Source: a virus
Reading direction: 5' to 3' (one strand)
DNA length: 21,586 nucleotides
IMG/VR virus record: IMGVR_UViG_3300020469_000302
Span: 1-21,586 of that record
Below, piece by piece: positions 2,397 to 21,464 of the stretch (position 1 is the stretch's first letter; each line of letters starts with the position of its first letter). The notes below the pieces were generated by a model. The model worked only from the letters and a program-made list of their open reading frames with translations. It ran no database searches and was not told the DNA's origin. The translations under genes and the position numbers were made by a program.

Positions 2397-2414
2397 AAAT
2401 ATAGGAAACTAACG

Positions 2415-3371: not shown

Positions 3372-3720
3372 TTTATTTTTTTTCCTGCTAATCAAACATT
3401 GCGTTATTGATTTATGGATTCAAAGTCTATTAACCTATAATCAAAAAAAATCTATATATACTTCTTTGTCAGCACAGGTGCATTATGTACAACATGGGCT
3501 TGGTACAATATTTGTGTTGTTGTTTTTTATACCATGGCCGTTGGCAATTCTTTTTGGTATATGTGATTATCTAGCACATTGGCATATTGATTTCCTAAAA
3601 AGTTCAACACAACAAAGACTTGGTATAAAATCTCCATCAAAAGGTTATTGGTTTTTATCGTCAATTGACCAAGGTCTACATTATCTAACTTATTATATTA
3701 TCATATTACTTGTATCCTAA
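3349..3720 (+). CDS. Polytopic membrane protein (DUF3307-like)
   Basis: 123 residues from a GTG start that overlaps the Cys-rich frame; no ATG exists upstream in this frame. Hydrophobic segments lie at about 2-18, 47-73 and 106-122. Conserved-looking His/Asp/Gln motifs flank them: KHCVIDLWIQS near the N-terminus, HYVQHG before the second segment, AHWHIDFLK after it and DQGLHYLTYY before the last. This pattern resembles the DUF3307 membrane family. It sits in the inner membrane by prediction; function is unknown. A holin-like or host-membrane role is possible but not shown. Confidence 0.65.
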   Translation: MTAVVVSSLFFFLLIKHCVIDLWIQSLLTYNQKKSIYTSLSAQVHYVQHGLGTIFVLLFFIPWPLAILFGICDYLAHWHIDFLKSSTQQRLGIKSPSKGYWFLSSIDQGLHYLTYYIIILLVS

Positions 3721-3725
3721 TATAC

Positions 3726-3733
3726 AATAAATA
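3726..3733 (+). promoter_or_regulatory. T4-like late promoter (AATAAATA), 5 nt from ATG
   Basis: AATAAATA followed by ATTGT and then ATG. Seven of eight bases match TATAAATA. In T4 this element spans about -13 to -6, so the predicted first transcribed base is the A of the start codon. Confidence 0.65.
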
Positions 3734-3738
3734 ATTGT

Positions 3739-4002
3739 ATGCGTATTAGAGATCAAATACTCAAAGATGCAAGAATAACAACAATAAAAGTGTATTATTG
3801 GATGCCGGATTACGAAAGTATCCTACAATTATTCATGTGGCAATTTTCAGACATACCTCCACAGTTTCCAAAAGCACACAAATTTTTAAATCATTGGAAT
3901 GACAATGTTGAAGCACGTATAAAGGACATATATTTGTCATATGCAGGTAATTTAAAACAAGTAGAATTCAATCCTGTGGACGATATATTCAATATCCATT
4001 AA
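3739..4002 (+). CDS. Conserved small protein upstream of gene 17, function unknown
   Basis: 87 residues, beginning MRIRDQIL directly after a late promoter, without Shine-Dalgarno. It is aromatic-rich: YYWMPDYESILQLFMWQ (about 19-35) followed by FPKAHKFLNHWND (about 43-55) and a C-terminal FNPVDDIF. I recognise this YWMPDY...ILQ...W pattern from small unannotated proteins of marine T4-like phages. No catalytic motif or membrane segment. Its own late promoter and position just before gp17 suggest a packaging or morphogenesis role. It is not gp16, which is encoded upstream. Confidence 0.7.
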   Translation: MRIRDQILKDARITTIKVYYWMPDYESILQLFMWQFSDIPPQFPKAHKFLNHWNDNVEARIKDIYLSYAGNLKQVEFNPVDDIFNIH

Positions 4003-4018
4003 GTACGCATTTAATTAG

Positions 4019-4026
4019 TATAAATA
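4019..4026 (+). promoter_or_regulatory. T4-like late promoter (perfect TATAAATA) for gene 17
   Basis: An exact TATAAATA, then CAAGT, then the ATG of the large terminase. The 5-base gap predicts a leaderless transcript. No Shine-Dalgarno lies between the promoter and the start. Confidence 0.8.
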
Positions 4027-4031
4027 CAAGT

Positions 4032-5627: not shown

Positions 5628-5632
5628 GAAAG

Positions 5633-5640
5633 CATAAATA
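5633..5640 (+). promoter_or_regulatory. T4-like late promoter (CATAAATA), 5 nt from ATG
   Basis: CATAAATA, then CTTGT, then ATG of the 724-residue gene. A GGAA sequence lies further upstream, but before the motif, so it would not be part of the late mRNA. Confidence 0.75.
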
Positions 5641-5645
5641 CTTGT

Positions 5646-7820
5646 ATGGCAGTTAATAGTGACACAGTAGCAAATAAGATATTCAAAGTTATCAAAGGAT
5701 CTGGACATGATGTTAAGATGTATGACTCATCTACAGGCAATGAAACAGTAGATCCATCAGTATCACGTTACTTTTATGTAAAAATGCCTAATTATATGGT
5801 ACATTTAGACTCTGATAACAGTGAAATCAAACTACATCAGGGTGCTGAAAAAACAGACGAAAAAGTCAAAGGAGTCATAAATAACATTAAGCATATTGCA
5901 AAGAGTTATATGCTTGATTTTGATCATAGAATATTTGGCAAAGAATTAACGCCAAAAAACTATGCATTTAAAATTGATCAAAATAGGAATGAGAAAGACA
6001 TGAGCGAGTTACAAACAGAAGGTTACACACCATTACAAGGATCAACAAAAACAAGTGAACAAAAACTTGAAGGTGTTAAAGTGATCGTAAGACACAACAA
6101 AGCAGTTGATGAAACTAGCAGAGGTGCTAGATCAAGAAACATTCAAGGTATTTTCGTAGAAACATCAGAAGGTGAAAGATTTAAATATCCACATATTCAT
6201 TTAAACGGTGCTAGAGCAATGGCAAGACACGTACATGCAGGTGGTAAACCACATGACGAAGTTGGTGAAGCAATTGTTAACCTATCAGATCAATTAGCAA
6301 AATTAAAAGAAGTTACAAAATTTGCAAGACGCTTTTCACAAGTACAAGAACAAGCGGCAGATGTATTACCATTGGTAGACAACAAAGTTTTAAATATTAA
6401 AAAAACAATCCACAAACTAACTACTGAAAGTGGATACACAGAATTTAAAGAAAATTACAAAGCATTAGAAACTGCAGAACCAACAATTGAAGCATTAGAA
6501 GAATTAAAAGGCAAATTTACAGTCACAAAATTTGATGAAAAAATTGGTGAAGTACTTCCTTTGTTACAATCACTAGTTGATGAAGCAAAACAAGAACAAG
6601 ATAATTCATCAAAAGCAATAGCAGATAGAATTATGTCAAAAATTAAAGCAGGTGATCCTGTAGATATGCATCAAGCAAATGCTACACAGCAAGAATACGA
6701 TCCAGAAAAAGTTGGCTCATTCACAAACAAAGATGCAAAAGTGGCATACAGACTTTCAGACTTGGCGGCTAAAATCAAAGATGACGAAATGAGTGTGTTC
6801 CTTGCAAGACTTTCAGATAAGTTTACACAATATGCAACAGATCCAAATATCAAAATGAAGATCAAACAAGATCCTGAAACATATTTAATTCAACCATGGG
6901 AAAAAGAAACAGCAAAAGCAATTATCCAAGGCGTAAAAATGAAAACTATAAATCAAGAGCCTGAAGCATTGCCAAAAGCAGAAGATGTTGTTCCTAATCC
7001 AGAAGCAGAATTAGAAGAAGCAGTTGCACCATTTGGCACAGATGAATCATTTGGTGAATCACTATCTATGCAAGATAAAATCAAAGCAATGGATGAGATC
7101 AAAGCAAGACAAAAAGCATTACAAGATATCCAGATGGATCCAAACACACACAAAGATGAAGAACTTAAAAAAGAATTAATGAGAAAAAAGGCAGAACTTG
7201 CTGACATGAAACATAATCTTCAGCAAATGGCAAAAAATGAAAATCCAATGTCACCAGAGGATATGAATAGAGTTGCAAGACAAGAATTTGATAGTATGTC
7301 AATGGACGCACAGCAAGACTTTGAAGATTACAAAGATGCTTTACAAGATGAAATTAAAGATCCAACAAGTGAGTATGCTGGAAAATCAACAGAGGAAATT
7401 GTTGCTATGTTGAGAAAAGAAGCAGACTCAATTGGTTATGCTGATGTATCAGATGGTGATAGACATCCATCAGAACCAAGTTGGTTAAATGCTGTTGCTG
7501 ACGAAATGGAAAAATCAAAAACAGAAGCAAGTGGATATGGTGGACAATCAGAACCACACATGCACACAATTAAAGTTGATGGCGATTACGATATGGACAG
7601 AGGTATTACTGATAAAGATTGTAAAGATATGGAATATGATCTTGCAAAAGGTGGTATTAAAGCACAATGCGATGCAAATGAAATGATGCAGGGCGGTGTA
7701 AATATTCACACAATGAGTCCAAAAAGTGCTGTTGTTGACGCATTATCAAATGCAGGTTACGAAGTTAACGAACAAGCAGACAAAGATATTCAAAGAATTA
7801 AAGATCTAGCAGGTCTTTGA
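5646..7820 (+). CDS. Large conserved marine T4-like protein, probable structural or core component
   Basis: 724 residues read from a late promoter. The N-terminal 320 residues resemble a conserved cyanophage/pelagiphage protein: an alpha/beta start (KIFKVIKGSGHDVKMYD), ELTPKNYAFKI (about 99-109), then GVKVIVRHNKAVDE, RGARSRNIQGIFVET, and GERFKYPHIHLNGARAMARHVH (about 176-197, Arg/His rich). From about 210 on it is mostly helical and Lys/Glu/Gln rich, with a Met-rich coiled coil at about 480-550 (KIKAMDEIKARQKALQDIQM). The last 90 residues return to alpha/beta (MHTIKVDGDYD, GGVNIHTMSPKSAVVDALSNAGYEV). No cysteine cluster or membrane segment. Late expression supports a virion or assembly role; function is not known to me. 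Confidence 0.75.
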   Translation: MAVNSDTVANKIFKVIKGSGHDVKMYDSSTGNETVDPSVSRYFYVKMPNYMVHLDSDNSEIKLHQGAEKTDEKVKGVINNIKHIAKSYMLDFDHRIFGKELTPKNYAFKIDQNRNEKDMSELQTEGYTPLQGSTKTSEQKLEGVKVIVRHNKAVDETSRGARSRNIQGIFVETSEGERFKYPHIHLNGARAMARHVHAGGKPHDEVGEAIVNLSDQLAKLKEVTKFARRFSQVQEQAADVLPLVDNKVLNIKKTIHKLTTESGYTEFKENYKALETAEPTIEALEELKGKFTVTKFDEKIGEVLPLLQSLVDEAKQEQDNSSKAIADRIMSKIKAGDPVDMHQANATQQEYDPEKVGSFTNKDAKVAYRLSDLAAKIKDDEMSVFLARLSDKFTQYATDPNIKMKIKQDPETYLIQPWEKETAKAIIQGVKMKTINQEPEALPKAEDVVPNPEAELEEAVAPFGTDESFGESLSMQDKIKAMDEIKARQKALQDIQMDPNTHKDEELKKELMRKKAELADMKHNLQQMAKNENPMSPEDMNRVARQEFDSMSMDAQQDFEDYKDALQDEIKDPTSEYAGKSTEEIVAMLRKEADSIGYADVSDGDRHPSEPSWLNAVADEMEKSKTEASGYGGQSEPHMHTIKVDGDYDMDRGITDKDCKDMEYDLAKGGIKAQCDANEMMQGGVNIHTMSPKSAVVDALSNAGYEVNEQADKDIQRIKDLAGL

Positions 7821-8011: not shown

Positions 8012-9046
8012 ATGGCGACTTTAGCAGAAATAAGAGCAAAACTTCAAGAACAAGAAGTAAAACGTTCACCAAATAGTTCAGGAGGCGACAACGCAATTTA
8101 TCCGTTCTGGAACATTCCTGAAGGCACAACAGCAACACTAAGATTTTTATCAGATAAAGATCCAAACAATACATTCTTTTGGGTAGAAAGACAAATGATC
8201 AGATTACCATTTGCTGGTATCAAAGGATCATCTGAAGCAAAACCAACTACAGTACAAGTTCCTTGTATGGAGATGTGGGGAGAACCATGTCCAGTATTAA
8301 GCGAAATTCGTCCATGGTTTAAAGACCCAAGTTTAGAAGACATGGGTAGAAAATATTGGAAAAAACGTTCATATATTTTCCAAGGTTTTGTTGTTAACTC
8401 TCCAATGGAAGAAGATTCAACACCAGAAAATCCAATTAGACGTTTTGTAATTAATCCGTCAATCTTTAACATCATTAGATCAGCATTGATGAATCCAGAT
8501 ATGGAAGATCTGCCAACTGATGTTGAAAAAGGTAGAGACTTTAAATTAACCAAAACTCAAAAAGGTGGTTACGCAGATTATTCAACATCAACTTGGTCTT
8601 TCAAAGAAAGAACAGTAAGTGATAGTGAACGATCAGCAATTGACTCTCATGGACTACATAATTTAGGCGATTATCTTCCTAAGAAACCTTCTGCAGAAGA
8701 AGTAAAAATAATTGCAGAAATGTTTAAAGCATCTGTTGATGGTGAATTATATGATGAAAGCAGATTTGGTCAACATTATAGACCAGCTGGCATGGCATCA
8801 TCACCAAGAACAAATAGCAATAGTGCAACAACTACAACAGCGGCACCAACAGCGGCACCAGTGGCTCCAGTAGCACCTGCGGCACCAGTTGTTGAAACTG
8901 CGGCACCAGTTGTTGAAACTACTACTGCTACAGCACCTGCGGCACAGCCAGAAGTGGCAACTGCTACAGCAACAGCAACAGATGATAAGTCAAAAGCATC
9001 AGCAGATGATATTTTGGCTATGATTAGAGCTAGACAAAGTAAGTAA
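8012..9046 (+). CDS. 32: Single-stranded DNA-binding protein gp32
   Basis: 344 residues (T4 gp32 is 301). It binds ssDNA cooperatively in replication and recombination and partners UvsX, UvsY and helicase. The ATG has AGGAG 8 bases upstream. The N-terminus MATLAEIRAKLQEQE is the cooperativity region; the OB core spans about 25-245 with YPFWNIPEGTTATLRFLSD, FFWVERQMIRLPFAG, CMEMWGEPCPV, YIFQGFVV and FVINPSIFNIIRSAL. Of the four T4 zinc ligands (H64, C77, C87, C90) only two Cys seem kept here, so zinc is probably not bound. The C-terminal 80 residues are an Ala/Pro/Val/Thr linker with a tandem repeat, ending in a helix SADDILAMIRARQSK in place of the long acidic T4 tail. Confidence 0.93.
   Translation: MATLAEIRAKLQEQEVKRSPNSSGGDNAIYPFWNIPEGTTATLRFLSDKDPNNTFFWVERQMIRLPFAGIKGSSEAKPTTVQVPCMEMWGEPCPVLSEIRPWFKDPSLEDMGRKYWKKRSYIFQGFVVNSPMEEDSTPENPIRRFVINPSIFNIIRSALMNPDMEDLPTDVEKGRDFKLTKTQKGGYADYSTSTWSFKERTVSDSERSAIDSHGLHNLGDYLPKKPSAEEVKIIAEMFKASVDGELYDESRFGQHYRPAGMASSPRTNSNSATTTTAAPTAAPVAPVAPAAPVVETAAPVVETTTATAPAAQPEVATATATATDDKSKASADDILAMIRARQSK
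8879..8920 (+). repeat. Two exact 21-bp tandem repeats in the gp32 linker
   Basis: The 21-bp unit GCGGCACCAGTTGTTGAAAC plus T occurs at 8879-8899 and again at 8900-8920 without mismatch, encoding AAPVVET twice. An exact in-frame duplication suggests recent linker expansion by slippage or unequal recombination. Confidence 0.9.
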
Positions 9047-9061
9047 AATCGTATATAGTAT

Positions 9062-9085
9062 TAGTGCATGAGCAATCATGCACTA
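9062..9085 (+). promoter_or_regulatory. Intergenic hairpin between gene 32 and uvsX
   Basis: TAGTGCATG at 9062-9070 pairs with CATGCACTA at 9077-9085, a perfect 9-bp stem with a 6-nt AGCAAT loop. There is no T-run after it, so it is not a standard terminator. It may stop 3' decay of gp32 mRNA or attenuate read-through into uvsX. The uvsX AAGGAG follows at 9094. Confidence 0.6.
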
Positions 9086-9104
9086 TTACAGACAAGGAGA
9101 AATT

Positions 9105-10172
9105 ATGGTAAGACCATTTGACGTAAGTAAATTTAGAAAGTCAATAACAAAAAGCATTGGTGGTATTTCTACAGGTTTTGATTCTGATCCAGACACATGG
9201 ATATCAACAGGAAACTACTGTCTAAACTATTTGATTAGTGGCGACTTTAATAGAGGTATACCGCTAGGCCGTGTAACAATGCTGGCAGGTGAATCAGGTT
9301 CTGGTAAAAGTTTGATTGCTTCTGGTAACATTATTAAAAATGCACAAAAGCAAGGCATATTTTGTATTGTGTTTGATTCAGAAAATGCATTAGATGAAAA
9401 TTGGTTACGAGCATTAGAAGTAGATACATCACCAGAAAAATTAATGCGTATTAATGTTGCAATGATTGATGATGTAGCAAAAACTATTTCTGAGTTTGTA
9501 TCAAGTTATAGAGCAGACTACGGATCTTTAGAGCAAGGCGACAGACCAAAAGTTATGTTTGTAATTGATTCATTGGGTATGTTGTTAACTCCAACAGATG
9601 TTGCACAATTTGAAAAAGGTGATATGAAAGGTGATATGGGTAGAAAACCAAAAGCCTTAACAGCACTTGTAAGAAATTGTGTTAATATGTTTGCTGAATT
9701 AAATTTAGGATTAGTTTGTACGAATCACACATACGCATCACAAGATATGTTTGATCCAGATGATAAAATTAGTGGCGGACAAGGATTTGTATATGCAAGT
9801 TCAGTTGTGGTTGCTATGAAAAAATTAAAACTAAAAGAAGATGAATCAGGAAACAAAATATCCGATGTTACTGGTATTAGATCAGCAGTTAAAGTAATGA
9901 AAACAAGATTTAACAAACCTTTTGAATCAGTACAGGTAAAAATTCCATATGAAGCAGGAATGGACCCGTACAGTGGTTTAGTTGATCTCTGTGAGAAAAA
10001 AGGATTGTTGGTCAAAGAAGGTAATAGACTCAAATACATTGATCGTTTAGGTAAAGAACACAAACATTATAGAAAAGATTGGACAGGTGAAAATCTTGAT
10101 CTTATAATGGCAGAGTGGGATAATGTCAAGTCGGAGGTAGAAGCAGAAGAACCTGCTAAAGCGGAGGCATAA
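9105..10172 (+). CDS. uvsX: RecA-like recombinase UvsX
   Basis: 355 residues from the preferred ATG at 9105, which has AAGGAG 5 bases upstream. An in-frame ATG at 9078 lies inside the intergenic hairpin with no ribosome binding site and adds nine non-conserved residues. UvsX (T4: 391) forms filaments on ssDNA and drives strand exchange with gp32 and UvsY. Walker A GESGSGKS (about 62-69), Walker B MFVIDSLGML (D155), and loop regions FEKGDMKGDMGRKPKAL and NHTYASQDMFDP typical of UvsX. The C-terminus is acidic (EVEAEEPAKAEA). It is followed after 3 bases by a small gene and then uvsY. Confidence 0.95.
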   Translation: MVRPFDVSKFRKSITKSIGGISTGFDSDPDTWISTGNYCLNYLISGDFNRGIPLGRVTMLAGESGSGKSLIASGNIIKNAQKQGIFCIVFDSENALDENWLRALEVDTSPEKLMRINVAMIDDVAKTISEFVSSYRADYGSLEQGDRPKVMFVIDSLGMLLTPTDVAQFEKGDMKGDMGRKPKALTALVRNCVNMFAELNLGLVCTNHTYASQDMFDPDDKISGGQGFVYASSVVVAMKKLKLKEDESGNKISDVTGIRSAVKVMKTRFNKPFESVQVKIPYEAGMDPYSGLVDLCEKKGLLVKEGNRLKYIDRLGKEHKHYRKDWTGENLDLIMAEWDNVKSEVEAEEPAKAEA

Positions 10173-10175
10173 ATT

Positions 10176-10421
10176 ATGACAGAAGATATCCAAGTGTTAA
10201 TTGAAGCATGGGACAAATTAAAAAATTATGTGCCAGCAAAAGATAGACTTGATGCGGCAATTGCCTACGTAACTTTAATTGATGATTATGGTGCAGATGA
10301 ATCTGATTGGAGAGAAGTTTTTTCTCATTCAAGTCATTTGCATGATGCATACAATGAAGTTTATGGTGAAATGGAGCAAGAAGAAGATCCATATAACGAA
10401 GATGAAAACGAGGACTACTAA
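10176..10421 (+). CDS. Small acidic protein between uvsX and uvsY, function unknown
   Basis: 81 residues starting 3 bases after the uvsX stop; CGGAGG within the end of uvsX can serve as its ribosome binding site. The N-terminal half looks helical (VLIEAWDKLKNY, LDAAIAYVTLIDD) and the C-terminal 20 residues are almost all acidic or polar (EQEEDPYNEDENEDY). No known motif. Its stop overlaps the uvsY start by one base. Context suggests an accessory factor for recombination or a DNA mimic-like acidic protein, which is speculation. Confidence 0.75.
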   Translation: MTEDIQVLIEAWDKLKNYVPAKDRLDAAIAYVTLIDDYGADESDWREVFSHSSHLHDAYNEVYGEMEQEEDPYNEDENEDY

Positions 10422-10897
10422 TGATTAACTGGTATGGGTTAGTTTCAAAAGATTTAGGCAAGTTGCCTGATTGTATTGATCATTACATGAAAGAACTTGA
10501 AGAAGCCAGAGTAGAAGCAGGACTAGTAGGTAATATCGAACGTAATGCTTCACATATACCCGGCGTAGTTGAACATAGATTTAATCAACTACAAGAAATT
10601 GAAGCCATACTAGAACATCTTAATATAGAATTGCGTAGAACAAGAGCAAAGCATTATAAGAAATTCTTAGAAGCATACCAAAGAGCTTTGACATCAAGAG
10701 ATGCTGAAAAGTACATTGATGGTGAAGATGAAGTTGTTGCTATGAGTCAACTTATTAATGAGTTTGCTCTTGTACGTAATAAGTATCTTGGCTTGTTAAA
10801 AGCAATTGATGCCAAGCAATTTCAAATCAATAATATTGTTAAATTAAGAGTAGCAGGATTAGATGACGCAGAATTATACAGCAAAAACTCAAGGTAA
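10421..10897 (+). CDS. uvsY: Recombination mediator UvsY
   Basis: 158 residues (T4 UvsY is 137). UvsY is a hexameric mediator that loads UvsX onto gp32-coated ssDNA. The protein is helical throughout and mixed in charge. The C-terminal half follows the UvsY pattern: RRTRAKHYKKFLEAYQRALTS, an acidic KYIDGEDEVV stretch, then a helix with NKYLGLLKAIDAKQFQINNIVKLR, comparable to T4 WGILLDFCSGALDAIKSRGFAIKHIQDMR. Position after uvsX supports the call. The start uses a TAATG overlap with the preceding gene. Sequence similarity to T4 is low, so confidence comes partly from context. Confidence 0.8.
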   Translation: MINWYGLVSKDLGKLPDCIDHYMKELEEARVEAGLVGNIERNASHIPGVVEHRFNQLQEIEAILEHLNIELRRTRAKHYKKFLEAYQRALTSRDAEKYIDGEDEVVAMSQLINEFALVRNKYLGLLKAIDAKQFQINNIVKLRVAGLDDAELYSKNSR

Positions 10898-11102
10898 ATC
10901 AAATCAATACAGTTTTAAGAATCATGAAGATGATCCTATGGAACAAATGCGTAGATCAATATTGGCAAAAGAAAATCAAATACAGCAATTAAAAAGATCT
11001 ATAGCAGACGAAGTTAAGGAAAAGTATTCTTTATACAAAAGAGTAAAAGAACTTAATGAAGAATTGTATAGGTTAAAAAATAAATCTAAGAATAGTCTTT
11101 AA
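10863..11102 (+). CDS. Small coiled-coil protein, function unknown
   Basis: 79 residues, overlapping the uvsY end by 35 bases if the ATG at 10863 is used; an internal ATG at 10938 (Met 26) would remove the overlap. The C-terminal 50 residues form an obvious coiled coil (ILAKENQIQQLKRSIADEV, YKRVKELNEELYRLKNK). The N-terminal 25 residues are polar and disordered-looking. No Shine-Dalgarno is clear. Its 3' end converges with the leftward gene by 17 bases. Role unknown; it may bind UvsY or UvsX. Confidence 0.6.
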   Translation: MTQNYTAKTQGKSNQYSFKNHEDDPMEQMRRSILAKENQIQQLKRSIADEVKEKYSLYKRVKELNEELYRLKNKSKNSL

Positions 11103-11298
11103 GAGGACCACCATACTTTTGGCCACGTACTTTTTTGCCTCTTAGGGTTTTACCATCATGTTTTTTACCACTATCTCTAGAACGTAAACCCTGTGATTTA
11201 CAACTGGCCTCATCAGAAGCACCAAGTTTTTTATCACTTCTACATACGGAAGTTGGCACTTTGCCCTTCCATTCGCTTATGAGATCGTTGATTTTCAT
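11086..11298 (-). CDS. Small basic late protein with possible capsid-targeting N-terminus
   Basis: 70 residues on the minus strand, about 18 Lys/Arg against 8 Asp/Glu. The N-terminus MKINDLISEW has the L/I-x-E shape of a gp21 cleavage site (ISE at 7-9), and the rest is Gly/Lys/Arg/Ser rich, ending in RGQKYGGPLKDYS. I recall small basic proteins of this CKSQGL...RD...KKVRGQKYGGP style from marine phages, without function. A late-type motif lies 5 bases before the ATG, like other late genes here. The opposite-strand frame over the same bases reads as non-native Leu/Ser/Pro-rich sequence. It may be a packaged, DNA-bound internal protein; that is inference. Confidence 0.72.
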   Translation of the reverse strand: MKINDLISEWKGKVPTSVCRSDKKLGASDEASCKSQGLRSRDSGKKHDGKTLRGKKVRGQKYGGPLKDYS

Positions 11299-11303
11299 AC
11301 AAT

Positions 11304-11311
11304 TATTTAGC
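11304..11311 (-). promoter_or_regulatory. Leftward late promoter (GCTAAATA), 5 nt from ATG
   Basis: On the minus strand GCTAAATA is followed by ATTGT and ATG, the same spacing and the same 5-base spacer as the late promoter at 3726. Six of eight bases match TATAAATA. Confidence 0.5.
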
Positions 11312-11320
11312 CAAAAAGTG

Positions 11321-11348
11321 TTGACAAACTAGGTAAATATGCTATAGT
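11321..11348 (+). promoter_or_regulatory. Sigma70-like promoter for the lysin gene, abutting ATG
   Basis: TTGACA at 11321-11326, 16 bases, TATAGT at 11343-11348. The predicted start is at about 11355, next to the ATG at 11356, so the mRNA would be leaderless or nearly so. No Shine-Dalgarno is present. Confidence 0.7.
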
Positions 11349-11355
11349 TAGTATT

Positions 11356-12000
11356 ATGAAAACTTATAAAATATTTATTTTGTCAGTTATTATTTTGGTA
11401 TTGGCAGGATTATTTTTTCCAAAAACATTAGCCAGTGCTGACAAACAAATTGATTTTTATGACCAACCAATTGAAAGCAACGAACAGTTTGTAAAACAAA
11501 TTTTTAATTGTGTACAACATTTGTATTCTGATTATGCAAAATATCCAATTGGTAGGCAAGTACCTTTTGATTTAATTGTAGCCATGGCGGCTTATGAAAG
11601 TGCTTGGGGGCAATCAAGGTTTGCTAAGGAAGGTCATAATTATTTTGGAATTAGGACTTGGGATTTAAAAAATATTCCACATATGAAAGCAAAGAAAAGA
11701 CCAGATGCTCCATGGGGTGTAAGAAAATATTCCAATATGTGTGCTTGTATAGAAGATTATATTCAGATACTAAACAATCATCCAGCATACAAAGAATTTA
11801 GAGATGCAAGAAGTTGGGAAATTCATATGTACGGGTATACCAATGCAACTACACTCTCTAGTTTTTTAATTGCTTGGAGCGAACTTGGTGAATTGTATAC
11901 AGAAAAATTGCGTAAAATTATTTTGTTAATTCATAAGCAAGGGTATTATAAAGAGCTACCAGTTAATCTTAGAGGCCAGATTGTTTACCAAGACAAGTAA
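11356..12000 (+). CDS. Membrane-anchored or exported glucosaminidase-type endolysin
   Basis: 214 residues. N-terminal signal-like segment: MKTYK, hydrophobic 6-22, then an A-S-A motif at 26-28 that could be a signal peptidase site; alternatively it is a signal-anchor-release segment. The catalytic domain (about 65-200) has the FlgJ/Bax-type glucosaminidase pattern: AMAAYESAWGQSRFAKEGHNYFGI, with E81 the likely catalytic acid, then YSNMCACIEDYIQILNNHPAYKEFR. Such enzymes cut the peptidoglycan glycan strand. Export by Sec would make lysis less dependent on a large-hole holin. It has its own sigma70-like promoter, unusual for a lysis gene that is normally late. Confidence 0.85.
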   Translation: MKTYKIFILSVIILVLAGLFFPKTLASADKQIDFYDQPIESNEQFVKQIFNCVQHLYSDYAKYPIGRQVPFDLIVAMAAYESAWGQSRFAKEGHNYFGIRTWDLKNIPHMKAKKRPDAPWGVRKYSNMCACIEDYIQILNNHPAYKEFRDARSWEIHMYGYTNATTLSSFLIAWSELGELYTEKLRKIILLIHKQGYYKELPVNLRGQIVYQDK

Positions 12001-12004
12001 GCTC

Positions 12005-12033
12005 TTGCATTTTTACTTTAAATAAGTTATTAT
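12005..12033 (+). promoter_or_regulatory. Sigma70-like promoter for uvsW, abutting ATG
   Basis: TTGCAT at 12005-12010, 17 bases, TATTAT at 12028-12033. An alternative -10 TATAGT begins at 12031. With the first, the predicted start falls at 12040, which is the A of the uvsW ATG. No Shine-Dalgarno is present. Confidence 0.55.
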
Positions 12034-12039
12034 AGTGTT

Positions 12040-13497
12040 ATGTCAAAAACTGCGAAATTAATAATTAGAGATGAAGTCAATGTAAAGTTTGAAGGCCTTG
12101 ATGTGATAACAAGGCGTAAAATTTCTGACAAACTGAAATTCTTTTTGCCGTATGCATATCATTTGCCTGCCTACAAGTTAGGTAGATGGGATGGTAATAT
12201 ACGTTTTTGTGACATAGGAGGAAGAACATATTTGAATTTACTGGATAGAATACTTCCTGTTATTGAAGAACAAGATTATGAAATTGATATTGAAGACAAT
12301 AGAAATGTACATGAGTTTAAATTTGAAAAAATCGATGAAAGTTTACACTTTAAAAAAGCATGGGGACCAAAACACCCACAAGCCGGCCAGCCAATAGTAT
12401 TAAGAGATTATCAAGTAGAAACAATCAATAAATTTTTAGAAAATCCACAATGCTTACAAGAAATTGCCACTGGTGCTGGTAAAACAATTATAACAGCAAC
12501 ATTATCACAATTAGTTGAACCATATGGAAGATCAATTGTAATCGTGCCTAACAAATCACTTGTTACACAAACAGAAGCAGATTATAAAACACTTGGATTA
12601 GATGTTGGTGTGTATTATGGCGAAAGAAAAGAGTTTGATAAACAACACACGGTTTGTACTTGGCAAAGTCTAAACAACATGCTTAAAAAAACTAAGAAAT
12701 TTGAAGCAGAAGTAAACATAGGTGACTTTTTAGATGGTGTTGTGTGCGTTATGGTAGATGAAGTGCATCAAGCCAAAGCAGATGTGCTTAAAACACTATT
12801 AACAGGCCCATTTGCTAGTGTGCCAATTAGATGGGGACTTACAGGTACTATACCAAAAGAAGATTATGAAAAAGCATCATTACAAGCAAGTCTTGGTGAA
12901 GTTATCAATACATTGTCAGCAAGTGAATTACAAGACAAAGGAGTGTTGGCAAACTGTCATGTTAATGTTGTGCAAACACAAGAAACAAATGCATTTTCAA
13001 CTTATGCAGGTGAACAAACATTTTTAGTAACAAATGAAACACGTTTACAATTTATTGCTGATCTAGTTGACACAATGAGAGCAGAAGGAAACACACTTAT
13101 TTTGGTTGACAGAATTAAAACAGGACAAGCACTTGAAGATATAATTGTTGATTCGGTATTTGTTCAAGGTCGAACTAAACTAGAAGATAGAGAAGAAGAG
13201 TACGACAGTATTGCAACAGAGCAACACAAAGTCATTATTGCTACATATGGAGTAGCGGCAGTAGGAATTAATTTGCCAAGAATATTTAATTTGGTATTAA
13301 TAGAACCAGGTAAATCTTTTGTAAGAGTAATACAGTCAATTGGTAGAGGTATTAGAAGAGCAGAAGACAAAGACCATGTAGAAATATGGGATATAACAAG
13401 TGCTTGTAAATTTTCTAAACGTCATTTGACAACAAGAAAAAAGTTTTACAAAGAAGCAAATTATCCTTTCACAATTGAGAAAGTAAACATAGAATGA
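12040..13497 (+). CDS. uvsW: Recombination helicase UvsW
   Basis: 485 residues (T4 UvsW is 503). An SF2 DNA helicase that resolves R-loops, drives branch migration and helps switch from origin- to recombination-dependent replication. N-terminal DNA-binding domain about 1-115 with YKLGRWDGNIRF. Q/motif I: RDYQVETI then ATGAGKT (143-149); motif Ia VIVPNKSLV; motif II DEVH (240-243); motif III GLTGT; motif V IATYGVAAVGINLP; motif VI QSIGRGIRR. All expected motifs are intact. It is the first gene of a run in which each following gene overlaps its neighbour. Confidence 0.95.
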   Translation: MSKTAKLIIRDEVNVKFEGLDVITRRKISDKLKFFLPYAYHLPAYKLGRWDGNIRFCDIGGRTYLNLLDRILPVIEEQDYEIDIEDNRNVHEFKFEKIDESLHFKKAWGPKHPQAGQPIVLRDYQVETINKFLENPQCLQEIATGAGKTIITATLSQLVEPYGRSIVIVPNKSLVTQTEADYKTLGLDVGVYYGERKEFDKQHTVCTWQSLNNMLKKTKKFEAEVNIGDFLDGVVCVMVDEVHQAKADVLKTLLTGPFASVPIRWGLTGTIPKEDYEKASLQASLGEVINTLSASELQDKGVLANCHVNVVQTQETNAFSTYAGEQTFLVTNETRLQFIADLVDTMRAEGNTLILVDRIKTGQALEDIIVDSVFVQGRTKLEDREEEYDSIATEQHKVIIATYGVAAVGINLPRIFNLVLIEPGKSFVRVIQSIGRGIRRAEDKDHVEIWDITSACKFSKRHLTTRKKFYKEANYPFTIEKVNIE

Positions 13498-14218: not shown

Positions 14219-14700
14219 TGGCGGCAACAACTAAAAAAATAAATTTGAATCAAATGTTGTACAATATTGATATGGCAAACTCAAAGTGGTATGATAGTTT
14301 AGATGAAGAAGAGAAAAAAACTTTTTCCCCATACACTGCAATGAGATTCACAAGCAATGTTCAAGGGCAAAAAGCATTTAAAGAACACTATATACTTTCT
14401 GTAAATGAATTTGCTAATAAGCATTTTGGTACTACACAAAAGCATGAAGGTGATTCAGTAATGTTTTGGAAGTTGTTATCACTTGCAGGTATTAAGAAAA
14501 AAATGTTTCATCCATGGGTAAAAGCACCAAAAGGCAAAGGTAAGAAAACTGGTATAGATAAATTGTTATCAGAGTGTTTTCCACATGCTAAAAACGATGA
14601 AATAGAAGCATTAAAGCAAATTAATGATGTTGATGGCTTTAAAAAATTAGCACGTCAACAAGGATGGACAGACAAAGAAATTAAAGAAATAGGCAAATAA
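14218..14700 (+). CDS. Conserved-looking basic protein, function unknown
   Basis: 160 residues from GTG, sharing one base with the preceding stop. Helical. It contains NSKWYDSLDEEEKKTFSPYTAMRF split over about 21-44, a helix HYILSVNEFANKHF, then FWKLLSLAGIKKKMFHPWVKAPKGKGKK (about 82-109) and ends in GWTDKEIKEIGK. The layout of a SPYxAxRF segment, a VNE helix and a basic HPWVK segment faintly recalls the T4 clamp-loader small subunit gp62, but the match is too weak to assign. I have seen similar unnamed proteins in marine T4-like phages. Confidence 0.7.
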   Translation: MAATTKKINLNQMLYNIDMANSKWYDSLDEEEKKTFSPYTAMRFTSNVQGQKAFKEHYILSVNEFANKHFGTTQKHEGDSVMFWKLLSLAGIKKKMFHPWVKAPKGKGKKTGIDKLLSECFPHAKNDEIEALKQINDVDGFKKLARQQGWTDKEIKEIGK

Positions 14701-15374
14701 TGTTTGAGTGTAAGTATTGTGGAAAAAAATTTACAAAAGAAACAACTCTATCGGTACATCTGTGTGAACCAAAAAGGAGGTTTCAACAAAAAGATGAACG
14801 TTTTGTACAGTTAGCATTTAGATCATATCAATACTTTTATAAGTCGACTATGCCACAAACACAAAAAGATAGGTCATATGATGACTTTGCAAAAAGCAAA
14901 TATTACACAGCATTTACAAAATTTGGTAGATACTTGTATGATGTACATGTGGATGATCCTAGCAAGTATGTTGATTACTTGTTGAAAAATATGGTAAAGA
15001 TTGATAGATGGCATTTAGATTCTGTGTATGAAAAATACATTAAAGAACATTTAAAGAAAGAACCTGCACAGTTGGCAGTTGAACGTGCTGTTGTTATAAT
15101 GAAACGTTGGGGAATTGATAATGGTCAAGATTTTAATAATTGCTTAGAAAACATAACACCAAACAGAGCAGTACACTTTATTAGATCAGGAAAACTATCT
15201 CCATGGGTGCTATACAATTGTGAAAGTGGTGTTAAACTATTAGAAAGTTTTAATAACGAACAAGTTGGGCTGGTGCATGATTATATTGATCCTGATTACT
15301 GGACAGCAAAGTTCCAAATGGCACAACAAGATGTAAAGTTTGTTGAAGAGGTGCTAGAAACAGCAGGATTGTAA
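14700..15374 (+). CDS. Zinc-finger-like protein, function unknown
   Basis: 224 residues; ATG overlaps the preceding stop by one base. The N-terminus holds a C2HC-type zinc finger: C4, C7, H20 and C22 in ECKYCGKKFTKETTLSVHLC, followed by a basic KRRFQQK stretch. The remaining 190 residues are helical and aromatic-rich (FRSYQYFYKSTMP, YYTAFTKFGRYLYDVHVDDP, AVHFIRSGKLSPWVLYNC), ending in an acidic helix. A finger plus basic linker suggests nucleic-acid binding. Similar proteins occur in marine T4-like phages without a name. Role inferred only from the finger. Confidence 0.75.
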   Translation: MFECKYCGKKFTKETTLSVHLCEPKRRFQQKDERFVQLAFRSYQYFYKSTMPQTQKDRSYDDFAKSKYYTAFTKFGRYLYDVHVDDPSKYVDYLLKNMVKIDRWHLDSVYEKYIKEHLKKEPAQLAVERAVVIMKRWGIDNGQDFNNCLENITPNRAVHFIRSGKLSPWVLYNCESGVKLLESFNNEQVGLVHDYIDPDYWTAKFQMAQQDVKFVEEVLETAGL

Positions 15375-15913
15375 TGACAGATTATAACGAAGGTATACCA
15401 GAAATAGTAGCCAAAGTTGCTAACAAAAGCGATAATGAAACTGTAAAAGAAAAATGGGAAGAATTAAAAACACTAGTGCATCTAGTACATAAAGATGAAG
15501 TATTAAGGCAAAGAAAAAAATTAGATGATTGGAAAAGTGGAATGAATGATGTCAATAGAAAGTTATCACAATTGCAACAGTCGTCATGGGGTGTTGGTAT
15601 AGAAGAAGACAATGATTATACATTCCATACTAGTTATGCAGGTGGTAGTTTGTCTTTGGACGACTACGGAACAACAGCAATGTCAACTACTTTTGATGAT
15701 GACTTTGAAAGCATAGAAGAAGATAATCAAATAAAATTAAATTTTCCTATGACTAAAGAAGAAGAATACATTAATGCAGGATTTACACCAGAGCAAATAA
15801 AACATATAGAAGAAAACACAACATCAACACCGTTATCAGAATATGAAGCAATTGAAGAACTATCTAAAGAAAAAATTAAACAACAGAAAGATCCAAAACA
15901 TAATCAATGGTAA
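15374..15913 (+). CDS. Acidic protein of unknown function
   Basis: 179 residues; ATG shares one base with the previous stop. The N-terminal 65 residues look like a coiled coil (ETVKEKWEELKTLVHLVHK, QRKKLDDWKSGMNDVNRKL). The middle is Gly/Ser/Asp/Thr rich (SYAGGSLSLDDYGTTAMS). The C-terminal third is strongly acidic and then basic at the very end. It lies directly before the DnaE-like gene with a 7-base overlap. No known domain seen. Confidence 0.7.
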   Translation: MTDYNEGIPEIVAKVANKSDNETVKEKWEELKTLVHLVHKDEVLRQRKKLDDWKSGMNDVNRKLSQLQQSSWGVGIEEDNDYTFHTSYAGGSLSLDDYGTTAMSTTFDDDFESIEEDNQIKLNFPMTKEEEYINAGFTPEQIKHIEENTTSTPLSEYEAIEELSKEKIKQQKDPKHNQW

Positions 15914-16491
15914 ACATAGCAAAAACAGATATTGATATTGATGTGAAGAACAGGGATGTTTTATTAGAAAAACTAAAACACATACCTGCCAGTATTATAA
16001 ATGATGGTGAAATTAAAAAACACAATACTGGAGTTTATTTTACTGATATACCAACACATCCGTTTACTAATTCTGCAAACATTGATTACAAACAAGCAGA
16101 AGATAGAGGTTATTTTAAATTAGATGTATTAAACGTAAGTGTGTATGAACAAGTTAAAAATGAAAAACATCTACAAGAATTAATTGATCAAAAACCTGAT
16201 TGGAGTTTGCTAGAACACAAAGAAATTGTTGAACAATTGTTTCATATACATAATCATTTTGATATTGTTAATAAATTAAAACCAAAGTCAGTTGAAGAAC
16301 TGGCGGCAGTATTAGCAATAATACGTCCTGCTAAAAGAAACTTGCTTAATGCAACTTGGTCAGAAATTCATAATAGTGTTTGGATAAAACCACAAGATAA
16401 TACTTACTACTTTAAAAAGAGTCATGCTATTGGATATGCATTAGCAATTTGTGTACAAATGAATTTAATGTCTAACTGTCAGACTTTTTAA
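15907..16491 (+). CDS. Miniature DnaE-like (Pol III alpha palm/fingers) protein
   Basis: 194 residues, far smaller than DnaE (about 1100). Its motifs run in DnaE order. TDIDIDVKNRD (D8, D10, D12) resembles the PDFDVDF...RR region that holds E. coli alpha D401 and D403. KHNTGVYF (38-45) resembles the KHAGGVVI segment. GYFKLDVLNV (68-77, D73) resembles LVKFDFLGL, which holds D555. LAAVLAIIRP (132-141) and FKKSHAIGYA (169-178) match the RPGP and FNKSHAAAYA segments of DnaE. I recall similar proteins in marine phages. PHP, thumb and beta-binding parts are missing, so independent polymerase activity is doubtful. It ends convergently with the leftward gene, overlapping by 20 bases. Confidence 0.72.
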   Translation: MVNIAKTDIDIDVKNRDVLLEKLKHIPASIINDGEIKKHNTGVYFTDIPTHPFTNSANIDYKQAEDRGYFKLDVLNVSVYEQVKNEKHLQELIDQKPDWSLLEHKEIVEQLFHIHNHFDIVNKLKPKSVEELAAVLAIIRPAKRNLLNATWSEIHNSVWIKPQDNTYYFKKSHAIGYALAICVQMNLMSNCQTF

Positions 16492-16843
16492 CCAATTGAA
16501 TTTGGCGTCTTTTAATTCTTTTCTTTACAATATTATTTAAACTTGTAGTTGGGCCAAAAACCATTTTGGTATCTTTGGTAGTAAATGTTTTTAGCCAATT
16601 TTGATATATATGAAAATCACCTGCTAAAAATATGTTGATTGGAATTATTCTATTTGATTCCCACCACCAAACATCACCTAATCTTAAAAATTCAGTTCTT
16701 AGTTCTTCAGTTGGGATATCATCATACACATAGATGCTAGTTACAAAATCATCTTGATTTTGCAGTATACCTACGTATTCGTTAACACCGTGTTTCATAC
16801 ACGATAAAAAAGGAAATTTTTCTGCTAGTTCGTTATAGTCCAT
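16472..16843 (-). CDS. Conserved marine T4-like phage protein, function unknown
   Basis: 123 residues on the minus strand. It has the pattern of a small protein I know from cyanophages: FPFLSCMKHGVNEYVGILQNQD near the N-terminus, then YVYDDIPTEE, GDVWWWESNRIIPINIFL (about 56-73) and a basic C-terminus FGPTTSLNNIVKKRIKRRQIQLVKK. The WWWESNR-IPIN core is distinctive. A sigma70-like promoter lies just upstream on the minus strand; the leader would be about 12 nt without Shine-Dalgarno. No enzymatic motif. Function is unknown; expression is probably early, opposite to the flanking genes. Confidence 0.8.
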   Translation of the reverse strand: MDYNELAEKFPFLSCMKHGVNEYVGILQNQDDFVTSIYVYDDIPTEELRTEFLRLGDVWWWESNRIIPINIFLAGDFHIYQNWLKTFTTKDTKMVFGPTTSLNNIVKKRIKRRQIQLVKKSDS

Positions 16844-17714: not shown

Positions 17715-18866
17715 ATGCCAATCCAGTCAATGGAGATTAAAGAAATCAAAACACAAGGTTTTGAAAGAGTAGTTCACGGTTATCACGAAGCAAGTAATTT
17801 CAGTGCCTACATAGCAATTCACACATTAAAAAATGGTCCTGCTTTTGGTGGCATACGTTACTGGAACTACAAAGACAATCATCGACCTTATCTTGATGTA
17901 CAAAAACTTGCAGAAGCAATGACAGAAAAATGCATGGTAGCAGGTATAAAATTAAGTGGTGGAAAATCAGTAGTGCAACAATCCTATCATAGAGAAATAG
18001 GACAATGTGGTGTTGAAGAAAAAAGAATTTTTCCTTATCTAGGAGAACTTATAAATCATCTCAATGGTGATTACTATGGCGGATTAGATGTTGGATTTGA
18101 TTACAAAATGTTACAACGTTTGAGAAATTATACAGAATATACAACAACATATTCTGATCCAGATATTGGCGGATCATGTACTGCTTACAGTGTTTACAAT
18201 GCAATGTGTGGAGCAGTAAAATATGTGTTTGATAAAGACTCACTTGAAGGATTATCTGTAGCCATAAAAGGTTTAGGAAAAGTTGGATACCAATTGGTCA
18301 ACTATCTTGTTGAAGACGGTGTAAAGTTATATGTTGCTGATAGTAATACAGCACAGATTGATTTATTGAAACCAATAATGGCAAAATATCCTTTTACAAT
18401 AAATGTTGTTAGTACAGATGATATACACAAACAAGAGGTTGATGTATATTCTCCTTGTGCATTAGGAAACGATATCAAACTTTCAAAAATACCTGATATG
18501 AAATGTAAAATTATTTGTGGTGCGGCCAATAATCAATTAGATATAGTAGATACTGGGTTGGCTAAAAAACAATTACTTGATAGTAAAATCACTTACGTTC
18601 CAGATACCCTGGCAAATGTTGGAGGAGTTTTTAGGTCAGCAGGAGTCATACTAAATTCAAGAAATGAAGAGGAATCTTTTAAATTAATACAGACAGTACG
18701 TGATAGAACTATAAAAATATTAGAATTTGCCACCCAAGCAAACATAAATCCAGCCGATGTATGCACGGAAATAGGACAAGCAATAACAGGTAAACCAAAT
18801 AGATTTAAAATGGGTCTAAGTGGTATAAGTGGTGTACGTAGTGGAAATAATACTTACAGGATTTAA
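17715..18866 (+). CDS. Leucine/phenylalanine-type NAD-dependent amino-acid dehydrogenase
   Basis: 383 residues, close to bacterial leucine dehydrogenase (about 365). Catalyses reversible oxidative deamination of an amino acid to a 2-oxo acid, releasing ammonia. Visible: GPAFGGIRYW (41-50), MTEK with K72, LSGGKSV with catalytic-type K84, GGLDVG with D125 (equivalent to the catalytic Asp of the family), GGSCTAYSVYNAM, DSLEGLSVAIKGLGKVG with a Rossmann GxGxxG (186-191), VADSN with D209 (NAD preference), YSPCALG (255-261), CGAANNQ and YVPDTLANVGGV. These align with leucine dehydrogenase motifs and all key residues seem intact. The gene starts 1 base after the structural gene stop, with AAGGA before ATG, so it should be expressed late. 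Substrate (Leu, Val, Phe or other) is undecided. Confidence 0.88.
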   Translation: MPIQSMEIKEIKTQGFERVVHGYHEASNFSAYIAIHTLKNGPAFGGIRYWNYKDNHRPYLDVQKLAEAMTEKCMVAGIKLSGGKSVVQQSYHREIGQCGVEEKRIFPYLGELINHLNGDYYGGLDVGFDYKMLQRLRNYTEYTTTYSDPDIGGSCTAYSVYNAMCGAVKYVFDKDSLEGLSVAIKGLGKVGYQLVNYLVEDGVKLYVADSNTAQIDLLKPIMAKYPFTINVVSTDDIHKQEVDVYSPCALGNDIKLSKIPDMKCKIICGAANNQLDIVDTGLAKKQLLDSKITYVPDTLANVGGVFRSAGVILNSRNEEESFKLIQTVRDRTIKILEFATQANINPADVCTEIGQAITGKPNRFKMGLSGISGVRSGNNTYRI

Positions 18867-18902: not shown

Positions 18903-19892
18903 ATGGAACTACAAAACACAATCATTACACACATGCCAGGCAAAAGGAAAAAGACGCCTAGTGGCTGGACAACAATAAATTGTCCAATGTGTACTACAAA
19001 TGGCCAATCAAGACCTGATAAAAGATCACGTGGTGGATTTAGATTTATTGACGGGGTAGTTTATCATTGTTTTAACTGTGGATTCAGTACAAGTTATAAA
19101 CCAGGCAAAACATTTGGTAAAAAAATGACAGGACTATTACGTGGCATTGGTGTTCCAGATAATGAAATAAGAAGACTACAACTTTTGGCTATACGTGAAA
19201 AAGAAAATAATCCAAACGTAGAAGAAAAACCAAAGCCAAAAGTCAGTTGGAGAGAAATTCAATTACCAAAAGGATCAAAACCTTTAATAGAAATAATAAA
19301 GCAAGACACTCCATCAGAAGATGCAATATGGGTGTACAAACATATTATTGATAGAGGATTAGATCATCATGGTGATTTTTACTGGTGCAATGATACATAT
19401 TTAGATTTAAATAGAAGATTTATTGTGCCATTTTATTACAATGGCAATACAGTTGGTTATACATCAAGAATAATTGACAACAACAAAAACAAGCCAAAGT
19501 ATTTTACTAACTCACAACCTAATTATATGTATAATATGGATGTGTTGAGTAAGCAAAGAAAATATTTGATTGTGGTAGAAGGTGTGCTAGATGCGTTAAG
19601 TATTGATGGACTAGCAGTGCTACACAACAAACTAAATCAAGTGCAAATTGATTTGATAAAAGAATTTGATGGAGAAATTATTGTGTGTCCAGATAGAGAT
19701 GCGGCAGGATCAACGTTAATTGATCAAGCAGTTGACAATGGATGGGCAGTTAGTTTTCCGCCATGGCAGGATCACATCAAAGACTGTGCTGATGCTGTAA
19801 AACACTATGGACAGTTGTTCACAGTAAAAAGTATTATTGACAGTCGGGTAAATAATAAAACAAAAATAGAAGTATTAAGAAAAATTGCGTAG
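18903..19892 (+). CDS. 61: DNA primase gp61
   Basis: 329 residues (T4 gp61 is 342). Makes RNA primers for lagging-strand synthesis with helicase gp41. N-terminal zinc-binding domain: C27, C30, C56 and C59 in CPMC...HCFNC. Toprim-type core: LIVVEGVLDALS with E226 and CPDRDAAG with D264 and D266. RRFIVPFYYNGNTVGYTSRII (171-191) is the usual strand pair before the Toprim core. The helicase gene begins 1.6 kb downstream, separated by three metabolic genes. Confidence 0.93.
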   Translation: MELQNTIITHMPGKRKKTPSGWTTINCPMCTTNGQSRPDKRSRGGFRFIDGVVYHCFNCGFSTSYKPGKTFGKKMTGLLRGIGVPDNEIRRLQLLAIREKENNPNVEEKPKPKVSWREIQLPKGSKPLIEIIKQDTPSEDAIWVYKHIIDRGLDHHGDFYWCNDTYLDLNRRFIVPFYYNGNTVGYTSRIIDNNKNKPKYFTNSQPNYMYNMDVLSKQRKYLIVVEGVLDALSIDGLAVLHNKLNQVQIDLIKEFDGEIIVCPDRDAAGSTLIDQAVDNGWAVSFPPWQDHIKDCADAVKHYGQLFTVKSIIDSRVNNKTKIEVLRKIA

Positions 19893-19900
19893 GAGAAATA

Positions 19901-20506
19901 ATGGCAACTTTAGATAAAGACAACAAGAAAAAATCTGGTCCTGATAAACCACAACAACCACTACAACCAGGAATGATGATGTGGGAGGCTGGAATAATGT
20001 ATTTCAGTGATGGCTTTGACAGTAATTCAACCAAACCAGTGATACAAGCAATAATTGAAAAAAACTTATTGCCTGATTCAGTAAGACCAAAAGAATTAAC
20101 ATTGGTAATTAATTCGCCAGGTGGACAAGTACACTCAGCATTTGCATTAATAGACACAATGAAAGGGTCAGCGATTCCTGTGAAAACAGTAGGACTTGGT
20201 ATGATTGCATCATGTGGACTATTAACATTTATGAGTGGTACAAAAGGTCGCAGAGTTATTACACCAAACACATCTATACTATCACATCAATACAGTTGGG
20301 GCAGTGTGGGTAAAGAACATGAATTGTTTGCAAGAGTAAAAGAGTTTGAATTGAGTACAGCAAGGATGATAGATCATTATAAAAAGTGTACTGGTTTAAG
20401 CGAAAAGAAAATTAGAGAAATACTACTACCTGCTGAAGATGTTTGGTTAAGTGCCAAAGAAGCAGTTAAGTACGGTATTGCAGATAAAATTGTTTCAACT
20501 TATTAA
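19901..20506 (+). CDS. ClpP-like serine protease
   Basis: 201 residues, the size of ClpP. ClpP is the peptidase barrel that works with AAA+ unfoldases. AGGAG lies 5 bases before ATG. Visible: LVINSPGGQVHSAFALIDTM (about 68-87), VGLGMIASCGLL with nucleophile S104, ILSHQYSWG with H129, and LPAEDVWLSAKEAVKYGIADKI with D180 as the third residue. The N-terminus is Pro/Gln/Lys rich and differs from cellular ClpP, so ClpX docking may differ. It is not the T4 prohead protease gp21, which is another family. It may join host ClpX/ClpA or act alone on host or virion proteins. Confidence 0.9.
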   Translation: MATLDKDNKKKSGPDKPQQPLQPGMMMWEAGIMYFSDGFDSNSTKPVIQAIIEKNLLPDSVRPKELTLVINSPGGQVHSAFALIDTMKGSAIPVKTVGLGMIASCGLLTFMSGTKGRRVITPNTSILSHQYSWGSVGKEHELFARVKEFELSTARMIDHYKKCTGLSEKKIREILLPAEDVWLSAKEAVKYGIADKIVSTY

Positions 20507-20517
20507 GGAGTACTTGT

Positions 20518-20832
20518 ATGAATGAAGAAACTAAAAACTTTATACAAAGCAATATTGAAAAAAACAATATATGTTTGTTTATGAAAGGTACACCAGATGC
20601 ACCGCAATGTGGATTTTCTATGGCAGTTGCAAATATACTAAAAGGTTTAGAAGTTGAGTTTACAGGTGTAAATGTATTAGCGGATCAAAATCTTAGAGAA
20701 GGTATTAAAGTTTTCAGCGATTGGCCAACTATACCACAACTTTATGTTAATGGAGAATTTATTGGTGGTTGTGATATTATAAAAGAAATGTATCAAGATG
20801 GTGAATTGCAAACAGTGTTAGGTATAAAATAG
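20518..20832 (+). CDS. Monothiol glutaredoxin (Grx4/GrxD type, CGFS)
   Basis: 104 residues, typical for single-domain monothiol glutaredoxins, which carry and deliver [2Fe-2S] clusters using glutathione. K23 in FMKG, active-site CGFS at 31-34, the cis-Pro segment WPTIPQLYVNGEF and the GGCDII motif are all present. AAGGAG lies 7 bases before ATG. Unlike T4 NrdC, which is a dithiol thioredoxin/glutaredoxin for ribonucleotide reductase, the CGFS site points to Fe-S handling. The stop overlaps the thyX GTG by one base. Confidence 0.93.
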   Translation: MNEETKNFIQSNIEKNNICLFMKGTPDAPQCGFSMAVANILKGLEVEFTGVNVLADQNLREGIKVFSDWPTIPQLYVNGEFIGGCDIIKEMYQDGELQTVLGIK

Positions 20833-21464
20833 TGGAAGTTACACTTATTGATAAAATGGGATCAGACTTAACTGTAGTGAATGCCGCTAGAGTTAGTTTT
20901 GGAAAAAACAAAGAGTTGTTTGATGCATCAGATGAAAAGTTAATTTCATTTCTAGCAAGGCATAATCATTGGTCTCCGTTTGCACATTGTAGTGTGCAGT
21001 TTAGAATTAAAGCACCAATTTTTGTTGCAAGACAGTTAGTAAAGCATCAAGTTGGTTTAAGTTGGAATGAAATCAGCAGACGTTATGTTGATTACGAACC
21101 TGAATACTATATGCCTAAAAACTGGAGACTACGAGCTGAAGATAAAAAACAAGGTAGCAGTAGTGAAACAATTGAGTACGATATCGCTAATACAATAAAA
21201 AATGCTAATACAACCTACAATGATATGCTGGCCAAAGGCATTGCTCCTGAATTAGCAAGAATGGTATTGCCACAAAATATGATGACAGAATGGTATTGGA
21301 GTGGAACATTATACGCATTTGCTAGGGTATGTGAATTAAGATGTGCTGAAGATACTCAAGCAGAAACAAGAGAAATAGCAGATTCAATTGATGAATTTTG
21401 TAATACAGAGTTTCCATACAGTTGGAAACATTTAAGACTTGAAAAACAAAAAGAAAATGTGTAG
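20832..21464 (+). CDS. thyX: Flavin-dependent thymidylate synthase ThyX
   Basis: 210 residues from GTG sharing one base with the preceding stop. ThyX makes dTMP from dUMP using FAD, NADPH and methylene-THF, supplying an AT-rich genome. Visible: FLARHNHWSPFAHCSVQFRIKAP in the N-terminal part (about 40-62), VARQLVKHQVGLSWNEISRRYVDY around the ThyX signature (65-88) and RMVLPQNMMTEWYWSGTL near the C-terminal dUMP site. The classical RHRxxSxxxxSxR signature reads KHQVGLSWNEISRR here: both Arg of RHR are changed, and one extra residue appears between them and Ser. Confidence 0.93.
   Translation: MEVTLIDKMGSDLTVVNAARVSFGKNKELFDASDEKLISFLARHNHWSPFAHCSVQFRIKAPIFVARQLVKHQVGLSWNEISRRYVDYEPEYYMPKNWRLRAEDKKQGSSSETIEYDIANTIKNANTTYNDMLAKGIAPELARMVLPQNMMTEWYWSGTLYAFARVCELRCAEDTQAETREIADSIDEFCNTEFPYSWKHLRLEKQKENV

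Follow-up and report, generated by a model that had tools for sequence, protein, structure and literature searches.

The gene at 15907-16491 (+ strand) of the window, that is, of the whole 21,586-nucleotide stretch of viral DNA analysed here, encodes one part, here called half B, of a minimal Pol III alpha (DnaE) split between two genes. Judged from its sequence and predicted models, this is a genuine gene under strong conservation, and its product is homologous to the Pol III alpha palm and fingers; half B consists of the aspartate-bearing palm strands and shortened fingers, with no thumb. The homology, the split point, the pairing of the halves in genomes, the conservation of residues and the fold of each half come directly from the computation. 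The most likely function is that of a two-subunit, non-processive nucleotidyltransferase or accessory polymerase; with a probability of about 0.6, the gene is one half of a minimal C-family nucleotidyltransferase that works as a non-processive accessory polymerase beside the family B replicase.

Homology and conserved residues of half B

The half B ORF encodes 194 aa from an ATG start and has a 7-base overlap with the stop of the ORF before it. A preliminary description of this DNA had recognized a 194-residue protein with motifs in DnaE order, closing a run of genes that starts at uvsW; all of the motifs were located as described, in the order of E. coli DnaE, and the ORF layout agrees with the place in the run. 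On the + strand, DIDID (residues 8-12, 15928-15942; DnaE 400-406) corresponds to E. coli D401, D403 and D405, KHNTGVY (residues 38-44, 16018-16038) to KHAGGVV 510-516, and FKLDVLN (residues 70-76, 16114-16134) to VKFDFLGL 552-559. Similarly, profile alignment places IIRPAKR (residues 138-144, 16318-16338) on LFRPGPL 637-643 (DnaE 636-643) and FKKSHAIGYAL (residues 169-179, 16411-16443) on FNKSHSAAYAL 756-766, both in the fingers. Residue by residue, D8, D10, D12, K71 and D73 occupy the positions of D401, D403, D405, K553 and D555. The palm DxD and the third aspartate of family C (D401, D403, D555) are present in half B, and the earlier assignment of its aspartates to these three positions is backed by sequence, profile and fold (D8, D10 and D73). 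The catalytic aspartates of the family are well established, for example residues 424, 426 and 590 in mycobacterial DnaE1 (PMC12641269).

The residues D8, D10, D12, H39, G42, K71 and D73 are unvaried in all 115 half B sequences that cover the site, and the DxD and KxD positions played no part in choosing these sequences. In the same set, R140, P141 and K143 of IIRPAKR and H173 and Y177 of FKKSHAIGYAL are also unvaried, each of these two motifs having helped to pick part of the set. The dN/dS values of half B against eight relatives are 0.05-0.16, with dS partly near saturation, which indicates purifying selection.

Half B matches phrog_11778 ("DNA polymerase") over its full length with an E-value of 5e-73 and the DnaE family phrog_405 with an E-value of 5.5e-6; the profile-profile comparison with DnaE gives 7.5e-6, and 16 of 27 half B homologues match the Pfam Pol III finger domain (best E 6e-5). 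With hhalign, half B aligns weakly to the single E. coli sequence and clearly to the DnaE family profile. Profiles are likewise required for the PDB, where the single half B sequence found chance matches only. Because the phrog, Pfam, profile-profile and PDB structure matches agree, the homology stands above chance. By tblastn, half B was found in 90 phage records, 89 of them at ≥80% coverage and almost all from large T4-like phages, including PA5oct/Paride, Phosso, Atu_ph07, SCTP-2, Vibrio 2.275.O, 121Q, RaK2, XacN1 and Erwinia phages; at least 598 IMG/VR stretches encode a relative. The carriers infect hosts as unlike as rhizobia and enterobacteria, and the record labels of the homologues ("hypothetical protein", "putative membrane protein", "DNA polymerase") are often misleading.

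Both halves were modelled by AlphaFold2 without templates, from alignments of the window and viral-contig sequences only, and the models reached pLDDT values of 86.6 (half B) and 83.5 (half A). In Foldseek searches against the PDB, C-family polymerases account for the best 14 matches of half B and the best 12 of half A, below which only noise appears, and the best matches of both are Pol III alpha/PolC. The best E-values are 2e-3 (B) and 2e-2 (A), with TM scores of 0.43-0.44 by query length; these modest values imply that the matches are partial and distant. In the half B model, which aligns to Pol III palms, D8-D12 lie on or beside a predicted strand (residues 9-13) and D73 lies on another (71-76). 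The unrelated fold against which the preliminary description had wanted its reading checked did not appear, since the model matches C-family polymerases.

Relative to Pol III alpha, the thumb (about E. coli 414-509), between the DxD and HxGG strands, is shrunk to approximately 25 residues, and the finger segment ADMLRRAMGKKK (E. coli 705-716, the ADMLRRAM segment) is absent; half B thus lacks the thumb and the complete fingers, ADMLRRAM included, by which family C is recognized. The PHP, clamp-binding, OB, tau and C-terminal regions are also absent. The loss of the thumb and of the ADMLRRAM segment makes processive replication unlikely, and it implies that the grip on DNA and the selection of dNTPs must be weak or achieved in some other manner.

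Half A, genome pairing and gene order

The N-terminus of half B lies only a few residues ahead of the strand that carries the catalytic DxD (D401), and the nucleotide-binding GRGS motif, which in family C belongs to the same chain, is absent from it. When four relatives were searched with PF07733 (Pol III alpha palm), the ORF picked in each genome was not half B but a different one, about 170-180 aa long, here called half A. The C-terminal part of half A matches E. coli 320-393 and ends in the consensus WGVGRGSSVASYVLYLIGVHKVNSIKYxLDxxEFL(K/R)-stop; in 106 of 108 unique sequences, the stop falls 0-3 residues past EFL, which equals E. coli 392-393. GxGRGS is unvaried in 108/108 half A sequences, a set for which GRGS helped to select part, and GRGS is also found in all 25 sequences from an earlier search run without such selection. 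In the Pol beta-like fold, GRGS contacts the triphosphate of the incoming nucleotide. Because half A stops after EFL and half B starts before DxD, the alignments indicate one C-family palm, cleanly cut between the triphosphate-binding motif and the metal-binding strand. Of the three ideas in the preliminary description, a small specialised polymerase fits best, but the protein is only half of it, the GRGS half being a separate gene.

Among 124 B and 133 A ORFs, none was an A-B fusion and none shared a fetched locus with the other half. The idea that a split intein joins the halves was considered and rejected, since A ends right after EFL and B begins right before DxD, which leaves no room for it. 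Over its first ~100 residues, half A varies and shows no match to anything known, with W80, P83 and Y86 nearly constant (for example, 1204-1737 of locus L040).

The two halves occur together across genomes. One A and one B were found in each of 11/11 complete named phages and in 3 long contigs, and all 14 of these genomes also carry a family B polymerase; the PHP domain expected of family C gave no match in them. Among 12 further contigs of 200-425 kb, 8 have both halves and 4 are without one, as can be expected of fragments. Half A was not found within the window, a genome fragment of 21.6 kb, whereas every one of the 11 complete named relatives has it, as does a 328-kb contig whose half B is 82% identical to that of the window. 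Similarly, no family B polymerase was found in this 21.6-kb fragment, in line with the earlier remark that it lies outside. An obligate DnaQ-like proofreading partner was also considered and rejected, as only 8 of the 14 genomes carry one. The 141.6-kb genome of Alishewanella phage Slickus01 contains half A, half B and PolB, which shows that genomes below jumbo size can have the split polymerase too.

In the window, half B follows a recombination/replication run (8012-13497, + strand) composed of a gp32-like SSB (8012-9046), UvsX (9078-10172), a UvsY-like protein (10421-10897) and UvsW (12040-13497). A C2H2-like zinc-finger protein (phrog_11058; 14700-15374, +) is encoded upstream of half B, and in phage PAC2 a neighbour of the half B homologue is likewise annotated as a C2H2-type domain protein. 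On the other side, a small convergent gene (phrog_11637; 16472-16843, -) overlaps the 3' end of half B, and the DNA primase is encoded at 18903-19892 (+). The order in relatives is stable, namely, uvsW, several small genes, half B, the small convergent gene, a virion protein or other gene, primase and a DnaB-like helicase, with XacN1 as the exception. The convergent gene, which in relatives overlaps or abuts the 3' end of half B, is found there in nearly all of them, and the overlap or the gene order may be functional. The half A genes lie near a GroES-like gene and a clamp-loader gene. Replication clusters hold both genes, B between uvsW and primase/helicase and A beside the clamp loader.

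Several other genes of the window deserve mention. A Glu/Leu/Phe/Val dehydrogenase-like gene (17715-18866), possibly an auxiliary metabolic gene, lies between a virion-protein-like gene and the primase and is not annotated there in the named relatives. The primase is followed at 19901-21464 by genes for a ClpP-like protease, glutaredoxin and the thymidylate synthase ThyX, and a Usg-like protein (3739-4002; PF06233, E 4e-20) is encoded just upstream of the terminase gene.

Proposed function and alternative explanations

A mechanism may be proposed for the two halves. Half B would bring the aspartate triad for metal binding, the lysine that neighbours its third member and a reduced set of fingers, and half A, whose gene lies far away beside that of the clamp loader, would bring the triphosphate-contacting GRGS. 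The two chains would probably associate non-covalently and rebuild one palm, which would add nucleotides to DNA ends in gap filling, repair or restart during recombination-driven replication, alongside the family B replicase. It is likely that the halves bind each other, and likely also that the complex transfers nucleotides; on balance, this complex would be a template-dependent DNA polymerase. Its use in gap filling, repair or restart is plausible from the gene context.

An active site may also be conserved for nucleotide binding or for a transferase other than a polymerase. The complex might be an active nucleotidyltransferase that is no DNA polymerase, such as a terminal transferase, an RNA, protein or small-molecule transferase, or a nucleotide-signal enzyme. 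The DxD...D and GS core is common to the wider Pol beta superfamily, and the thumb and most of the dNTP-binding fingers are missing, both of which would suit such an enzyme; however, the Pol III-specific finger pieces RPxK and KKSHxxxY are kept throughout and both genes reside in replication clusters, and we consider this explanation unlikely. The drastic truncation and the complete PolB replicase in the same genomes could instead point to a non-catalytic protein, one that either serves the phage replisome as scaffold or regulator or, by mimicking Pol III alpha, acts on the host replisome as a decoy or inhibitor. This is rather improbable, as the metal- and triphosphate-binding residues are invariant, whereas inactive family X relatives lose theirs (PMC9226535). 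The alpha regions for binding clamp, tau and epsilon are also lacking. For a decoy in particular, the same conserved protein is found in phages of rhizobia and enterobacteria, whereas a host-specific decoy would be expected to change fast. The two remaining ideas of the preliminary description, a decoy for the host replisome and a clamp-loader or tau-binding mimic, accordingly find no support in the invariant catalytic residues, the lack of clamp-, tau- and epsilon-binding parts and the co-occurrence of the partner half in every complete relative tested. That only fragments of DnaE remain might also suggest a host dnaE that was captured and is now decaying, but the conservation data already contradict this very improbable reading: dN/dS is 0.05-0.16, conservation is near full length in 89 phage records, the catalytic residues are invariant and the gene order is stable.

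If the two-subunit accessory polymerase is active, it would set the lower limit of what a C-family polymerase needs, demonstrate that two separate chains can together form a polymerase active site and help to account for the presence of two unrelated polymerases in large T4-like phages. Somewhat short of an even chance, and hence tentative, is the wider proposal that the pair is the smallest known C-family polymerase, joined non-covalently and with a site divided between two chains at the exact boundary of the triphosphate-binding and metal-binding motifs, and a dedicated second polymerase beside the family B replicase in T4-like jumbo phages.

Comparison with known systems

Bacterial DnaE/PolC and the phage halves share the palm aspartate triad, K553, HxGG, RPG and NKSHxxAY in the same order. 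They differ in that the phage protein is split between the GS motif and DxD and amounts to about 370 aa in all, compared to 1160. A two-gene DnaE cut at the palm junction of halves A and B is also encoded by the Cbastvirus phages Cellulophaga phiST (2304-5904 of locus L357) and Tenacibaculum Larrie (3146-6726 of locus L104); in Larrie, the two products match PF07733 positions 3-98 and 100-260. Unlike A and B, the Cbastvirus genes are adjacent and encode a full-size protein that includes PHP, thumb, fingers and HHH. Searches of phiST and Larrie for family A and family B polymerases gave no match, which suggests that a palm cut at this point probably works, if this DnaE is their only replicase. 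Gene 1 of the Cbastvirus DnaE has a conserved tail of ~50 aa after ERFLN.

Noncanonical or truncated family X polymerases (PMC9226535) resemble the phage halves in that their palm is of the Pol beta type and both palm and fingers carry deletions. All doubly truncated members of family X have altered catalytic triads (PMC9226535), whereas the triad is kept in every member of the phage family examined; a truncation with a full triad argues for retained catalysis.

The closest known system is the split Pol III alpha described by sequence analysis in T4-like group 2.2 jumbo phages by Iyer et al. 2021 (Viruses 13:63, PMC7824862), a "phage-specific minimal version" encoded by two distant genes together with a family B polymerase. 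These authors suggested that the split protein may act in strand synthesis or repair and proposed that it models ancestral Pol III (PMC7824862); an active enzyme made of the two halves would also bear on whether such pieces are early Pol III relics or products of reduction. Experimental follow-up of the split Pol III alpha was not found in a literature search mostly outside subscription journals, and a 2026 jumbo-phage review contains none of the DNA polymerase terms sought. The system of Iyer et al. consists of an N-terminal NTP-binding piece and a C-terminal Mg- and template-binding piece, with no other Pol III domains, which matches the pair seen in the relatives of the window. Half B is a standalone C-terminal piece with the Mg-binding aspartates and part of the fingers, and among the T4-like genes of that system, those for SSB, UvsX, the UvsY-like protein, UvsW and primase are in the window, and PolB is seen in 14/14 relatives rather than in the window itself. 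In addition, Atu_ph07, a group 2.2 phage named by Iyer et al. 2021, carries homologues of both halves. By sequence, the half B gene is thus a member of this already described, sequence-defined family, and the window adds an uncultivated phage to it. To that description, the present analysis adds the exact split point, the invariance counts, the PHP and PolB tests, the loss of ADMLRRAM and a non-jumbo carrier, Slickus01 (141.6 kb).
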